Source: Liolophura sinensis (lineage: Eukaryota > Mollusca > Polyplacophora > Chitonida > Chitonidae). From it: a stretch of DNA of 64,000 nucleotides. The translations under genes were made by a program, and so were the position numbers. This document shows positions 50,974-57,510 of the stretch, one piece after another (position 1 is the stretch's first letter; each line of letters starts with the position of its first letter). The stretch spans positions 17,473,485 through 17,537,484 of the forward strand of contig NC_088296.1 in NCBI RefSeq assembly GCF_032854445.1, written 5' to 3'. The notes under the pieces are model-generated. The model saw nothing but the letters and a program-made list of their open reading frames with translations. It did no database searches and had not been told where the DNA came from.

Positions 50974-51093
50974 TTAGAATTTAAGATTTGAGATGGATGG
51001 TAAGTCCGGTAATTTGATGTCCTTAATCTTCTGGGGTATGTTCATCTCCTTGACAGCGGATACGGCGCGGGCTGGAGCAGCAGCAATGCCCGC
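50974..51093 (-). CDS. AP3S1: AP-3 sigma exon 6 with stop
   Basis: Acceptor TTGTAG, stop TAA at 50976-50974. It encodes AGIAAAPARAVSAVKEMNIP then QKIKDIKLPDLPSISNLKF, matching the sigma-3 tail (APARAVSAVKNMNLPEIPRN in human) but shorter and diverged at the end. Confidence 0.92.
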   Translation of the reverse strand, partial: AGIAAAPARAVSAVKEMNIPQKIKDIKLPDLPSISNLKF

Positions 51094-54000
51094 CTACAAC
51101 CAGACAATGAGTCATTTGATTATGGTTTAAGGTAATTTTTCAGACATATATATGTAGTGGATAACAAATAAGTGGACAAGAAATGCAGTCTGGATTGTTT
51201 CAGATACACAGTTGTAAAGCCAAAGACAACTGACCAGGCTAATATCCCAGAACATTCTTACAGAAAAGGTCTGTCTCACACTCCCCAAAACACCCTCATC
51301 TGAAAAATTGGGCTAGATTAGTCTGTTTCTCAACATTGGCAATACAATTTCATATTTAAAGGGAAAATGTGCTGGACATAGATAATAACAAAGATTTTCT
51401 GGAGAAATGTTCAGTTGGGTAGGGCCTTTTCTGTGGGTAGGTAGGGTTACGTGAAACAAACTTATTTCCACAGACAGCAGCATATGCATTTAGGGTTAAA
51501 GTGGTCAAATTATTTACTGATTCCTTGTTGATGGCAATTTTTCAACTATTTACCGGAACACAAGCACCTTGACATATCCTGCCAAATGGTCATCTGAACA
51601 GACAGTACAGACAGATGTGCAGAGACAGACAGTACAGGCAGACATTATAGACAGATGTGCACAGATAGACAGTATGGGCAGAAGTGCAGAGACGGACAGT
51701 ATGAACAGATGTGCAGAGACATACGGTACAGACAGATATGCACAGACAGACAGTATAAACAGATGTGCACAGAGCGACATACACAATAAGACAGACATGT
51801 ACAAGCTGACAGACATGTACAAGCTGACAGACATGTACAAGCTGACAGACATGTACAAGCAGATAGACAGACATGCACAGACAGACAGACATGCATGTAC
51901 AGACAGACAGACATGCATAGACAGATAGATATTTACAGACAAACACACATGTACAGACCAAGAGACAAATACGACTGGAAAGACATGTACAGATCAAGAG
52001 ACAAATACAACTAGAAAGACATATACAGACCAAGAAACAAGTACAACTTGAAAGACATGTACAGACCAAGAGACAAATACAACTGAAAAGACATATACAG
52101 ACCAAGAAACAAGTACAACTGGAAAGACATGTACAGACCAAGAGACAAATATGAGCAGGCAGACATATACAAGCCGACCAAATGTACAAATACATACCTC
52201 CGATTTTTCAAGTTTATTCTGTTCTTCTATGCGTGTGAGAATCTCTGTCATATTCGTTTCCAGCACCATTCCCCCCATCACTAGTTCTGACAATATATGA
52301 TGGACCTGTAGACAAAGGTGTCAGCCAAGGCCAAATTAAAAAGGTGTTTGTTTGGAGAAACAAAGTCCAAATTTCATTTATTATTATTATTATTTTTTTT
52401 TTTTGAAGAATAGATTCCATGTTGTGTATTACAAGTGCAAGTTTTCTGAATAATATATGTTAACAATGATTTTCAAGTTAATTGTTTCAAGCTTTAAATG
52501 GATAAAAAAATTTCAACAAAAGAATAGCCCCTCCCCCTCCTCCCCCCATACAACTATTTAAGTCTCAATTAAATTTTCTTTACATTATTATTTTTTCAAT
52601 AACTATTTAATGCAATTATTCACTTTATGTACAAGGGGTGAGGAAACCAGGTTGCCTGGAACAAACCACTGCCCTTCGGCAAATTATGGCAGACTTTTCC
52701 ACTTATATTACACTTATGTAGTATACATGTATATCCTGTTGGTGGAAGTCGAGTGGTCTCCAGCGAACATCAAGTATTGTGGACCACAAAAATATTGCCA
52801 GCAAGGCCCTGTGCAAAACAGGGCAATCTTAGAAAAATATTCCATTTTTATAGTCTTGCAACTGTATCATTTGAATGCCAGAAAAATGTTTCAGTTTAAA
52901 CCATGTGTCTAAAGACAAAGGTGTGCACCTCAGAATAGCATGGTGGCCCAGGCAACTCCACATGTATGGTATGAAAACAGTCCACTGTTCTGGCAGAATG
53001 ACTTCATCATCAACACTTTTAATACTTGTCATTTGTAATCTGTGACCATTTTGACAATTATCAGGCTAATTCGAACATAATGAACATGTGCTTTCATGCA
53101 AAATTACGAAGCTGGGAAATTCAGCAAAACACAGTTTTACACAAGCACACATTTCTGAGAATATTTCACTTCTTTGTGCTGCCTAGTTTCACTTCAATAA
53201 ATTGTTAACATACCAAGTTTACATATACTGTGATGTGTGGAACAGCAATATTTTAATCCATGACAAGCAAATATTTAAAACCGTTTTAATCATGCACATT
53301 CTGACTCATACATTGCCCGATCCGTGCAAACTTCAGCACTGTAGTACATGTGTGAGCGGAGGACACTGACGCCTGACATAAAACCATCACTCAAACAAAA
53401 CAAAAACAAAAACCAATCAGAATCATGGACGGTGACCTAACTTACATACTTCATACCTGATCTACATGGAATATCAAGTCTAACTCGCAAACATTTTCAA
53501 ATCGTTTGTCCAGCGTCTCTACGAATACCTACAACAATAAGGGCATGTGCACCAGCTAGGGAAACATACAAGTATGACATGCTGTTAGAACTGCTATATA
53601 TACATTCTACAACTGGGGGTCATTTCAAATTTACAGCAACAAATAAAGCAAAGTCAAAACATTCAATTCAGACTTGTGTTTTTGCACTATGAACAAATCC
53701 TACTCTTTTACAAATACATGTACATTAGAATACGATAAAGGTTACTGTAATGCTGAAATGACCCCTAATCTACCTGAAAACCACTTCTACACTTTCACAG
53801 GTGACTCTAGACAGTGTGTAGTGTCATACCTTATCGACATGGAATATTAAGTCAAGTTCACAAACATTTTCAAAACATTTGTCCAGTGTTTCCACAAACA
53901 CCTGAAAATTGAAATGCAATAATGACTCATTCAGAGACAAAAGAAATCAATGAATTCAGTTCAGTTATTTTTAAGATCTTTTTAAGAGAAAATTGACTGT

Positions 54001-57000
54001 ATCAATCAATCATGTGATGATCAGGTAAACTCATTGACTTACACATTCAGGATAAAAAAAAATTGAGGATATCAATGAGAAAACACAAATTAAAGAAAAG
54101 CTGCAAAACAATGATCTATCGTCTTGTTCGCACTGAAATGCACACAGTGCAAAGTTTGAAATTATTTGCAAAGACTGCTATACGGAACTGGGACCTGCTT
54201 AGCACTTCCATTTCTCGAGAAACTGTTCACCTATATGAATCAGAACATACTTTATTCATGTTCTTAGTCTCTTTCTTTTTAAAATGACAAGATCGCCCAA
54301 ATATTAGGTATTTTTACATTATTACAGAATGACACTAGTATCGGATATTTTCTCAAGAAGTAAAAGTCACAAGCTTTTTGTTACTCCCCACGACCAGCAT
54401 TGTATGTTATGTGAATGTTTAAAAATAATTAAAAAACTGAGAATTCTGCCAGAATATTTAAATGAAGCACTGTCAGTTCAGTGGAAATGGCACGTGCACA
54501 CGATAAACTTCATATGTAAAACAAACATAGCTGATTACATGTGTAAAAGAAGGACTTACATCTCGCTCATAAAGATATGAGTATGTTGTTCATTAGATGG
54601 TCTAACCATGTGAAAAAAAAAATAACAGAAACTCAATATTCCTGCTAGAATTACATATACTGTCTAAAATGAAGAAGACAGGGTACTTAATTCATGTATA
54701 ACCCCTTACTTGAGAATGTTGCATTCCTTTACTAATGAACTTACCCACATGTGATACATATGCGCACTATGACTGCTAAAATAGTGTAATCTACGAATGT
54801 CAGGTTGAACCAACAGAAAAATAGCTGTTGCCACGCATGGCCACAAAGGCCACTCCTGTCTTCAAGGTTTTAATGCCAAATGATTTTTCAACATACCAAG
54901 TTTACATATACTGTGATGTGTGGAACAGCAATATTTTAATCCATGACAAGCAAATATTTAAAACCGTTTTAATCATGCACATTCTGACTCATACATTGCC
55001 CGATCCATCGAAACTTCAGCACAGTAGTACATGTGTGAGCGGAGGACACTGCCACCTGATATAAAACCACCACTCAAACAAAATTTATTTATTTATTTTT
55101 TTATCCACTTGAATGGCGTTTTACTCCATGCTCAAGAATATTTCACTCATATGACGGCGACCAGCAATTATGGTGGAACAAAATCCAAGCAGAGCCCTGG
55201 AACAGCAAATCCAAGCAAACCTTCCTACCTGAACGTAACTGCACTAACAATGCTACTCACCTGAATGAGATCTAGAATACCCAGTTCACTCTCTGAAGAA
55301 TCCACACAGAAGACAAAGTAAAGAGTGGCGTAGTGACGGTAGATAAGTTTGTAGTCGGATCCACCAATCAAACTGGGGAAAAAGGGGGAAAACATGAGCT
55401 GATAATGAAGCCATAATTTAAAGGAAAGACAACAAATAATATAACCTAGGTTATCTAGGAGGAGAAGTTAAAACAGACCTGAATGACAAACACACATTTA
55501 GGAGAAGTTAAAACAGACCTGAACGACAAACAGACATTTAGGAGGAGAAGTTAAAACAGGCCTGAACAACACACACGCATTTAGGAGGAGAAGTTTAAAC
55601 AGACCTAACGACAAACACAAATTTTTTTCTGGCGTGCTTGGTAACTTTTTATAAAAAGTCAATTTATAAGACGGAATTCACACCAGGTCATGGGATGCAC
55701 CATTCTATGCCAGATTTGATAAAACACATTCACTCCTCCTGAGGAAGTACACCGGGACAGAACACGAAGACGACAGCTGTGGGTAAACCAGAATGTTTAA
55801 TATCGCACTACACAGACTGCCAACAGGCGGGAAAACCTACACAAAGAACACCAACCGCTGTAGACATGTGCAATAGAGCGAAGACATCACATGGATTTAG
55901 ACACAGCGACCAATAGTCAACCTACACCAATACTGGCGTTAGAACAAGTGAAAACACCACATCAGATCACTTCTACCCGGTCATACATGTTTGGTTAAAA
56001 GGTCAACTGGGGTTCAGGTAACATATTACGCAGAAAACACTGTCCTAGGATTATAGAATAATTCATACCTTATTGGTTAAAACTGATAACATGACAGGTC
56101 TTCCATTGACTCAATGTGCCTAATTTTGCTTACTCTGAATAGTCTGGTTGTGCAAACATCACAAAAATAAAAAGTTACGCGTTTTAAGCTTTCAGTGGAA
56201 TGACTTATCGATGGGTCTTTGGTCTAGGGGTAACTCTTTCCAAATCTTTCTAAAACAAGGCATTTGCAGCTGTTTTAAAGTGGATTTAAAGGCCTATTTC
56301 ATTTCGTAAAGTGCTTTGCAGAATTCCGCAATGTGCTTTGCAGAATGAGTGAGTGAGTGCTTGGGGTTTGACGTCGTACTTAACAATTTTTCAGTCACAT
56401 GACGATGACTTTGCAGAATGACTGGGCTTTGGATTTTTCAGTTCAATAATTAAGTGTTGACGCCATGTTGATGATCTTTAAGATTTCTGTGAATATCAGA
56501 AATAGTTGAAAACACACATCAACGTTTAATTCAATTCAACTACTTTTCCCACAAATGTGTGACGATGACTGACTAGGGAAAAAAAACTCACGTGCCACCC
56601 TCTAAAAAGTTGCAGACGTTGTCATCTCTTTTGGATACCAAATGGAATGTTTCCCTGATGACCTGTTGTTGCATGTCTTCAGCCTAAAAAACAAAAACAA
56701 TAACATTACTGTTTGAGATTCACAGGCTGCGGAGGCAGTAGCATAACCTGGCCTCTCCACACAGTGCCATCAGCTCCTATGTCACTTGTCCGAGATTGGT
56801 TTGATGTTAGGTTTGGCAAAATTTTGTTTGGCAAAGGCTGGCCACAAAACAATGTCAGAGAGCACTTCATTTGAAAACCTGATGCAGTTGCCTGTCCTTG
56901 TTGAGACTGTAAGTACCTTTGTTCACTTTGAGCATCAGCAAGGAATCTTGGATTAGAAAATAACATACTGACGTTGTACTTACGATGTATCAACTGACGA

Positions 57001-57510
57001 AAAGATAAGGAACATACAGTAAGTGTCTGCAAACTTAAGGCCGTGGAGGCCTTTTAGATTGATAATTTTTGCCAGGGAAACAGCATCAGGTCTTTAAATG
57101 CCCACTCTAACGTTGGTTTAGGGCCATCCATGGCCGAACAAAATTTTGCCACAGATAAAGTACGTCAGAGCAATCTCGGTCTACTGTATCACAGGCGTGC
57201 TAAAGAATAAATTAAAGAATAAATTAAAGAATAAATTCTGAACATCTCAGCTTAAATTTTCTTCACTTTGAGGAGCTTTCAGCTTTCAGCCTTCACGCTC
57301 TGGCCCTTCTAATGGAAGATACAAAGTAGTTCTGAAAAGTGGACATCTGTTTTGGTGTTCTCCTGCAAGCTGTTGACTGTTGTTGTTGCAGTGACTTTAG
57401 TTTATATCACAGATAACACATTGAAAGAAACAAAAACTCACATAGTACTGATAGAATCGGCTCAACCTGGGCTTTCCGTGGTTGTTAAAGACAAGGATTG
57501 CCTTAATCAT
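50974..57510 (-). CDS. AP3S1: AP-3 adaptor complex sigma subunit, complete, with alternative exon 4
   Basis: Sigma-3 is the small subunit of the AP-3 coat, which sorts cargo from endosomes to lysosomes and lysosome-related organelles. With the delta subunit it binds acidic-dileucine signals. Exons: 57442-57510, 56592-56683, 55261-55372, exon 4 (53830-53901 or 53457-53528), 52198-52305 and 50974-51093. They join in phase into 190 residues; human AP3S1 has 193. Landmarks: MIKAILVFNNHGKPRLSRFY, RETFHLVSKRDDNVCNFLEG, YRHYATLYFVFCVDSSESEL, NVCELDLIFHVD, VMGGMVLETNMTEI, QNKLEKSE and APARAVSAVK. The last exon ends SISNLKF instead of the vertebrate NLPSFK. The label S1 is nominal, as invertebrates usually have one sigma-3. 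It shares a divergent promoter with the ADAR1-type gene. Confidence 0.96.
51580..52190. repeat. Minisatellite in AP-3 sigma intron 5
   Basis: Two related arrays: ACAGACATGTACAAGCTG-type units (51580-51900) and ~44 bp units with ACATGTACAGACCAAGAGAC and AAATACAACTGGAAAG (51940-52190). They open frames of up to 200 residues that are artefacts. The array ends within 10 bp of the exon 5 donor. Confidence 0.9.
52198..52305 (-). CDS. AP3S1: AP-3 sigma exon 5
   Basis: 108 nt, acceptor CTACAG, donor GTATGT at 52197. It encodes VHHILSELVMGGMVLETNMT and EILTRIEEQNKLEKSE. Confidence 0.95.
53210..53396. repeat. Duplicated intron segment, copy B
   Basis: ATACCAAGTTTACATATACT to CACTCAAACAAA, about 180 bp, almost identical to 54891-55080. 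It lies 61 bp downstream of exon 4b on the gene strand. Confidence 0.92.
53457..53528 (-). CDS. AP3S1: AP-3 sigma exon 4b (Arg/Gln form), tandem duplicate
   Basis: 72 nt, phase 0 to phase 0, acceptor TTGTAG, donor GTATGA at 53456, lying 301 bp downstream of exon 4a. It encodes VFVETLDKRFENVCELDLIF then HVDQ: Cys100 becomes Arg and Lys115 becomes Gln. About ten other codons differ only synonymously. Intact splice sites and an intact frame argue against a dead copy. Using both exons together would keep the frame, so exclusivity is not forced by frame. Confidence 0.9.
53830..53901 (-). CDS. AP3S1: AP-3 sigma exon 4a (Cys/Lys form)
   Basis: 72 nt, phase 0 to phase 0, acceptor TTTCAG, donor GTATGA at 53829. 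Residues 92-115, VFVETLDKCFENVCELDLIF then HVDK, identical to human AP3S1 as remembered. It includes the residues equivalent to AP-2 sigma-2 V88, N97, V98, L101 and L103, which line the dileucine pocket. Confidence 0.93.
54891..55080. repeat. Duplicated intron segment, copy A
   Basis: The partner of 53210-53396, same orientation, with only a few substitutions (for example CCGTGCAAAC versus CCATCGAAAC). It lies between exon 3 and exon 4a, next to a SINE. Confidence 0.92.
55083..55225 (-). mobile_element. SINE, reverse, diverged
   Basis: TTTATTTATTTATTTTTTTA, GGCGTTTTACTCCATGCTCA, AGAATATTTCACTCATATGA and CCAGCAATTATGGTGG. In AP-3 sigma intron 3. Confidence 0.82.
55261..55372 (-). CDS. AP3S1: AP-3 sigma exon 3
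   Basis: 112 nt, acceptor CCCCAG, donor GTGAGT at 55260. It encodes LIGGSDYKLIYRHYATLYFV and FCVDSSESELGILDLIQ, the conserved longin-fold core. Confidence 0.95.
55440..55620. repeat. ~42 bp GGAGAAGTTAAAACAGACCT repeat, four copies
   Basis: Short array in AP-3 sigma intron 2, units ending CGACAAACACACATTTA. Confidence 0.9.
56592..56683 (-). CDS. AP3S1: AP-3 sigma exon 2
   Basis: 92 nt, acceptor TTTTAG, donor GTGAGT at 56591. It encodes AEDMQQQVIRETFHLVSKRD and DNVCNFLEGG, ending two bases into Thr54. Confidence 0.95.
57442..57510 (-). CDS. AP3S1: AP-3 sigma exon 1
   Basis: ATG at 57510-57508; 23 residues MIKAILVFNNHGKPRLSRFY plus QYY; donor GTGAGT at 57441. The family start MIKAIL fixes the start codon, although an in-frame ATG lies upstream. 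The plus-strand frame over it is a shadow. Confidence 0.95.

Follow-up and report, generated by a model that had tools for sequence, protein, structure and literature searches.

Tandem duplication of exon 4 in the AP-3 sigma gene of Liolophura sinensis, and the possible alternative use of the two copies

The gene for the sigma subunit of AP-3 in Liolophura sinensis, found within a stretch of 64,000 nucleotides that was analysed as a whole (the window), carries two neighbouring versions of its fourth exon, here termed 4a and 4b. This raises the question of whether the two are used as alternatives and, if so, whether the choice between them changes the cargo that AP-3 selects, as had been proposed in the first-pass annotation of this DNA. 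We argue below that the tandem exon 4 duplicates probably serve as alternatives in splicing, most likely with just one of them in each transcript, and that their alternation would tune AP-3. That both exons are spliced, that they exclude one another and that any functional effect follows are all points that we infer from the genomic sequence; alternative splicing of the pair appears likely, and mutual exclusion is a fair guess.

The AP-3 sigma reading frame is complete on the minus strand, with six exons per transcript and a product of 190 amino acids whichever copy of exon 4 is included (Table 1). Both forms match the clathrin adaptor small chain domain (PF01217) in one stretch each, the 4a form with 170.2 bits and the 4b form with 165.7 bits (cut-off 22.5). 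In the PDB, the product is closest to chains of AP-3 complex subunit sigma-1 (9c58, E = 7.5e-100), and the AP-1, AP-2 and AP-4 sigma chains range from 1.7e-27 (the best AP-2 and AP-1 chains) to 8.8e-24, with AP-4 at 2.2e-25 at best. Judged by sequence similarity, the product is therefore closer to AP-3 sigma than to the sigma subunits of AP-1, AP-2 or AP-4.

Table 1. Exons of the AP-3 sigma gene and elements of the intron between exons 4a and 4b, in window coordinates.
Feature	Position	Strand	Basis
AP-3 sigma exon 1, coding part from ATG	57442..57510	-	spliced open frame, splice sites; whole-protein PDB and Pfam matches
AP-3 sigma exon 2, 92 nt	56592..56683	-	spliced frame
AP-3 sigma exon 3, 112 nt, phase 0 end	55261..55372	-	spliced frame
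Exon 4a, 72 nt, Cys100/Lys115	53830..53901	-	24/24 residues as in AP-3 sigma-1 chain 9c58
4a-4b intron, 301 nt	53529..53829	-	one genome copy found; predicted RNA fold stable
Inverted repeat 5' arm, 25 nt, 84% complementary, 4a-4b intron	53741..53765	-	
Inverted repeat 3' arm, 25 nt, 84% complementary, 4a-4b intron	53616..53640	-	
Exon 4b, 72 nt, Arg100/Gln115	53457..53528	-	22/24 residues as in 4a
AP-3 sigma exon 5, 108 nt	52198..52305	-	spliced frame
AP-3 sigma exon 6, coding part to stop	50974..51093	-	spliced frame

A search of the 609-Mb genome (632 contigs) with the whole protein, in which scores were given to the best candidates alone, returned 16 places, namely the seven exons described here and nine others. 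The latter include exons of AP-2-like, AP-1-like and AP-4-like sigma sequences together with weak matches. Inspection of 9.9 kb around five of these other sites revealed three sigma-like loci and two weak matches, on C10 and C11. The locus on C6 at 20.57 Mb is an AP-2-like sigma, as confirmed by PDB matches, and we take those on C12 at 29.66 Mb and on C6 at 6.41 Mb to be AP-1-like and AP-4-like respectively, by resemblance. No further copy of AP-3 sigma was found among these scored candidates, and the gene is apparently single-copy. The codon boundary that closes exon 4 of AP-3 sigma is also where one exon of the AP-2-like gene ends. With E values up to 1 allowed, neither the AP-2-like nor the AP-1-like stretch showed a doubled equivalent of exon 4.

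Several repeats were encountered at these loci. At the AP-4-sigma-like locus (about 6.41 Mb on C6; L016 6392-7402) a tandem array with a 129-bp unit (7.8 copies, 93% match) has the last coding exon, stop included, as its first unit, and its later copies contain stops and small indels; this is a coding-derived minisatellite in what is presumably the 3' UTR. Within the AP-3 sigma gene, the intron between exons 5 and 6 contains a minisatellite-like array with mostly 18-nt spacing (51771-52156), and the intron between exons 2 and 3 contains four tandem copies spaced 40-43 nt apart (55453-55633). A short dispersed SINE-like repeat (55076-55213) recurs on both strands of the window, with 16 further matches of 73-84%.

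The exon pair itself is as the first-pass annotation had described it. The two 72-nt, phase 0 exons lie 301 nt apart, their coordinates, strand and AG/GT boundaries are correct, and the flanking junctions given (55261 and 52305) and the residue numbers 100 and 115 hold for the spliced 190-residue frame. Exon 4a encodes VFVETLDKCFENVCELDLIFHVDK and exon 4b encodes VFVETLDKRFENVCELDLIFHVDQ. There are 14 nucleotide differences between them, distributed over 12 of the 24 codons, 10 of which differ silently and 2 by replacement (the annotation had counted about ten and two), and the replacements are Cys100Arg and Lys115Gln only. The likeness cannot be ascribed to chance: within the window the translations of 4a and 4b find one another with E = 9e-11, and when all six frames were scanned without gaps, no third place had more than 8 of the 24 residues in common. 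For the other AP-3 sigma exons no second match below E = 1 was observed in the window. Outside the coding segment, the ungapped similarity of the two copies extends only to the AG of the acceptor and to GTATGA, the first six bases of the donor (80-nt family D6). These adjacent exons of equal length and equal phase, each with its splice sites, are tandem duplicated homologous exons.

The pair is flanked by a 205-nt direct repeat with 94% identity (53196-53400 and 54879-55083). Only these two copies were found in a genome search that skipped very common words, which makes the repeat unlike an abundant mobile element. We considered whether it might be a scar of the exon duplication and rejected this, given its 94% identity against the saturated silent sites of the exons (see below); moreover, duplication of a unit with one exon would not account for the spacing of 1,683 nt or for the order of the elements (repeat, 4a, 4b, repeat). 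The intron between 4a and 4b was likewise rejected as a dispersed element, since no second copy of it was found in the genome search, again with very common words skipped.

The proposal of a cargo switch rests on the location of exon 4 within the region corresponding to the dileucine pocket of AP-2 sigma2. Contacts of sigma2 with the acidic-dileucine loop of Nef (Glu160 to Leu165) are made by R15, Y62, A63, L65, F67, H85, V88, E89, L91, N92, N97, V98, C99, L101 and L103 (PMC3901399, Table 2). Residues 56-110 of AP-2 align with residues 62-116 of AP-3, with an offset of six, and the contacts V88, E89, L91, N92, N97, V98, C99, L101 and L103 correspond to AP-3 positions 94, 95, 97, 98, 103, 104, 105, 107 and 109, within exon 4. 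The claim thus stands in so far as nine contact equivalents are located in the exon, but 4a and 4b do not differ at any of the nine. The two positions that do change are equivalent to Tyr94 and Lys109 of sigma2, which do not appear in Table 2 of PMC3901399; this table describes one ligand on AP-2, and we therefore use it for AP-3 by analogy. On that analogy, the pocket itself is not switched between 4a and 4b.

It is therefore rather unlikely that the choice between 4a and 4b directly switches, via the sigma-3 pocket, the specificity of AP-3 for dileucine cargo. Besides the nine matching positions in the exon, such a switch would draw on the location of position 100 between the contact positions 98 and 103, and an arginine there could in principle attract an acidic residue of the motif; against it stand the identity of the contact positions in both forms and the placing of the Tyr94 and Lys109 equivalents outside the contact table. 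In sigma2, V88D and L103S each lowered NIS binding (PMC7615786) and each made the subunit less able to rescue ZIP4 endocytosis (PMC13202269). In 4b, Arg100 lies three positions away from the pocket Asn, and with an unchanged pocket and a moved charge this leaves room for an indirect effect at the pocket rim, on the delta subunit or on the membrane side. In AP-3, the sigma-3/delta part binds PI(3,5)P2, and the N-terminus of beta-3 covers the dileucine site in the compact form, in a model without side chains (PMC13178560). It could be that PI(3,5)P2 binding or the covering of the dileucine site by beta-3 is affected by the change between 4a and 4b.

The explanation that we prefer, alternative use of the two exons, would run as follows. 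Exon 4 of AP-3 sigma would have been duplicated in tandem long ago, and two transcripts, 1-2-3-4a-5-6 or 1-2-3-4b-5-6, would give rise to two sigma-3 subunits with a common fold and common dileucine-pocket residues. The 4b form would carry Arg100 and Gln115 in place of Cys100 and Lys115, so that one positive charge is moved and the net charge stays equal. The effect would be a fine tuning of AP-3 in some cells rather than a new cargo code, and candidates for the site of this tuning are the pocket rim or its second shell, the contact with delta and the charge on the membrane side.

How the inclusion of one exon at a time might be enforced bears on a second reading, in which both exons enter one mRNA (214 amino acids), or 4b joins 4a as a cassette, and the 24-residue segment is doubled. 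The frame stays open both with double inclusion and when both exons are skipped (166 amino acids), so nonsense-mediated decay could not sort the products, and we rejected exclusion enforced by decay. Double inclusion is thus in frame, and we found no sequence feature that forbids it; the total PF01217 score of the doubled protein (186.4 bits) is above that of either single form. However, the longin match is then split into two stretches, and a doubled segment in such a compact subunit would be unlikely to fold well. We regard this reading as quite unlikely.

Incompatibility of U2 and U12 sites does not apply to this pair, as both donors start with GTATGA, unlike the U12 donor consensus. Steric exclusion is known from vertebrate OGDH, in which the choice between exons 4a and 4b depends on branch points 25-41 nt (in human) from the 4a donor, and this type requires that branch point and upstream donor be no more than about 50 nt apart (PMC7969005). 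As described there, OGDH resembles AP-3 sigma in having an ancient exon duplication and two forms of one subunit. In contrast, and going by consensus matches alone, AP-3 sigma has no yUnAy sequence within 50 nt of the 4a donor and the nearest lies 94 nt away, on which ground steric exclusion was rejected. Two copies of the splice-regulator motif UGCAUG are located in the 400 nt that follow 4b, compared with six over the 6,348 nt that separate exon 1 from exon 6 (counting the inner exons), too few to support a role.

A further candidate is the structure of the intron between the two exons. Its predicted fold had a z score of -4.14, with none of 100 shuffles as stable, and a second run gave -3.18 (40 shuffles); a sliding window covering most of this intron (53500-53800) reached only -2.06. 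Two of the 42 windows across the gene also fold well, 54100-54400 (z = -3.1) and 56800-57100 (z = -3.72). In or near the latter lies an imperfect inverted repeat (56807-57158, in the intron between exons 1 and 2) with 54-nt arms that are 78% complementary. The fold of the 4a-4b intron rests largely on a 25-nt stem with 84% complementarity and a duplex energy of -32.6 kcal/mol, and the longest contiguous self-complementary run in this intron is not unusual (11 of 60 shuffles were as good). The donor of 4a is paired, in the fold predicted for this intron, with TGTCATAC, a sequence close to the acceptor of 4b, and an overlapping intron sequence, TCATACTTG, is complementary to both exon 4 donors and can pair with that of 4b. 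Pairing as good was obtained in 21 of 1,000 shuffles for the 4a donor and 59 for the 4b donor, compared with 237 for the exon 3 donor and 558 for the exon 5 donor, and a switch based on pairing between the exon 4 donors and the intron is too weak to claim. Exclusion of the Dscam type depends on intronic RNA pairings. The structured intron between the AP-3 sigma exons and its complementarity to both donors are reminiscent of this type, although the donor pairing in AP-3 sigma is only nominally rare. Structure-aided mutual exclusion is a plausible hypothesis.

The splice sites of both exons had been described as good. This holds for the AG and GT dinucleotides at both, but the pyrimidine tract of 4b is moderate and it is preceded by an earlier AG. 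The 20 bases before the acceptor AG contain 14 pyrimidines in 4a and 13 in 4b, and the other four acceptors have 12, 13, 16 and 19; the tract of 4b is thus close to those of exon 5 (13) and exon 6 (12). In the last 100 nt before 4b, yUnAy is matched just by CTAAC at -57 and CTTAT at -10, and the latter is too near the acceptor to serve as a branch point. The earlier AG lies between CTAAC and the 4b acceptor, 29 nt after CTAAC, with a second AG 3 nt further on. Similar AGs, 26-28 nt before the acceptor, are also present in introns 1-2, 2-3 and 3-4a, so the earlier AG does not disqualify 4b. Reading through the donor of either 4a or 4b leads to a stop at the second codon, and 4b also has a stop directly before its acceptor.

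Use of the earlier AG would add 27 nt that end in a TAG in the frame of 4b. This is the basis of a third reading, in which 4b is mainly a regulated poison exon that lowers the level of AP-3 sigma, and the position of CTAAC relative to the upstream AG would suit it. We consider it very unlikely: a poison exon has no need of the codon-level conservation that is seen over the 24 codons, and the AGs ahead of exons 2, 3 and 4a are placed in the same way.

The nature of the differences between the copies points to two functional coding exons, for which alternative splicing is the likely use. The method of Nei and Gojobori (NG86) counts 11 changes at 14.0 silent sites and 3 at 58.0 replacement sites; the silent proportion of 0.79 (11/14) is saturated, beyond the limit for computing a distance, and dN is 0.054. 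When the 14 differences were placed without selection, at least 4 codons were replaced (mean 9.4), and two or fewer in none of 20,000 runs. With one copy constrained and the other drifting, in simulations that spanned 11 divergence levels, 2 or fewer replaced codons together with 10 or more silent ones were obtained in none of 44,000 runs; with both copies constrained (4% of replacements accepted) the pattern appeared in up to 1,351 of 4,000 runs. Long-standing purifying selection on both copies, another point of the first-pass annotation, is borne out by these counts and simulations, which compare the two copies with one another. Going by the outcome of the simulations, coding selection has very probably acted on 4b over a long period, and 4b is very probably an old functional coding exon. 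That 4b is instead a fading or unused duplicate, with two conserved positions replaced and an AG and stop upstream, is highly improbable, since saturation at silent sites goes together with only two differing residues and an intact frame, and drift never reproduced this pattern.

Some relaxation on 4b is nevertheless possible, because two conserved positions are replaced in it and 4a matches the mammalian chain throughout. Chain 9c58, which we take to be human, is identical to 4a at 24 of 24 residues and to 4b at 22. A more distant chain, 7p3x (presumably yeast), likewise retains Cys100 and has Thr at position 115. The AP-1-, AP-2- and AP-4-like sigma sequences of this genome have Tyr at position 100; at position 115 the AP-1-like and AP-2-like sequences have Lys and the first AP-4-like copy has His. 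A search for relatives yielded 7 pattern matches in viral_contigs and 30 in genome_contigs, collections composed of other than animal genomes, and none of these was related.

Tandem duplicated alternative exons are already known, and coq-2 in molluscs is a close parallel. Exons 6a and 6e of coq-2 in helminths, annelids and molluscs are mutually exclusive and differ at two switched residues (PMC7434440). As reported there, coq-2 is similar to AP-3 sigma in that equal-length homologous exons occur in a core gene, one copy being of the pan-eukaryotic type and the other having two switched conserved residues. In contrast to AP-3 sigma, where the pair is known from the genome and the changes lie outside the AP-2 contact table, exclusion in coq-2 was reported from RNA-seq and the residues are located by the substrates. 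For AP-3 sigma, we found no description of an alternative exon in the openly licensed PMC literature that was searched. PF01217 is shared with AP3S1 and its relatives; the second copy of exon 4 is a feature of the AP-3 sigma gene described here.

In its most far-reaching form, our proposal would have 4a and 4b strictly exclusive and switched between tissues via the structured intron, as a lineage-wide, ancient two-state AP-3 in which the charge moved by Cys100Arg and Lys115Gln alters the complex in cells with many lysosome-related organelles, for example through membrane charge sensing or by relieving autoinhibition on the sigma-3/delta side. We put this forward as a speculation that we think unlikely to hold in full.

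Adaptor complexes usually diversify by gene duplication, and vertebrates have two AP-3 sigma genes. In Liolophura sinensis one locus was found, and one exon seems to do the job of gene duplication. The two changes fall in a segment so conserved that 4a is identical to the mammalian chain over 24 residues. If both forms are made, they would constitute a natural two-residue variant that isolates the roles of positions 100 and 115 in AP-3.
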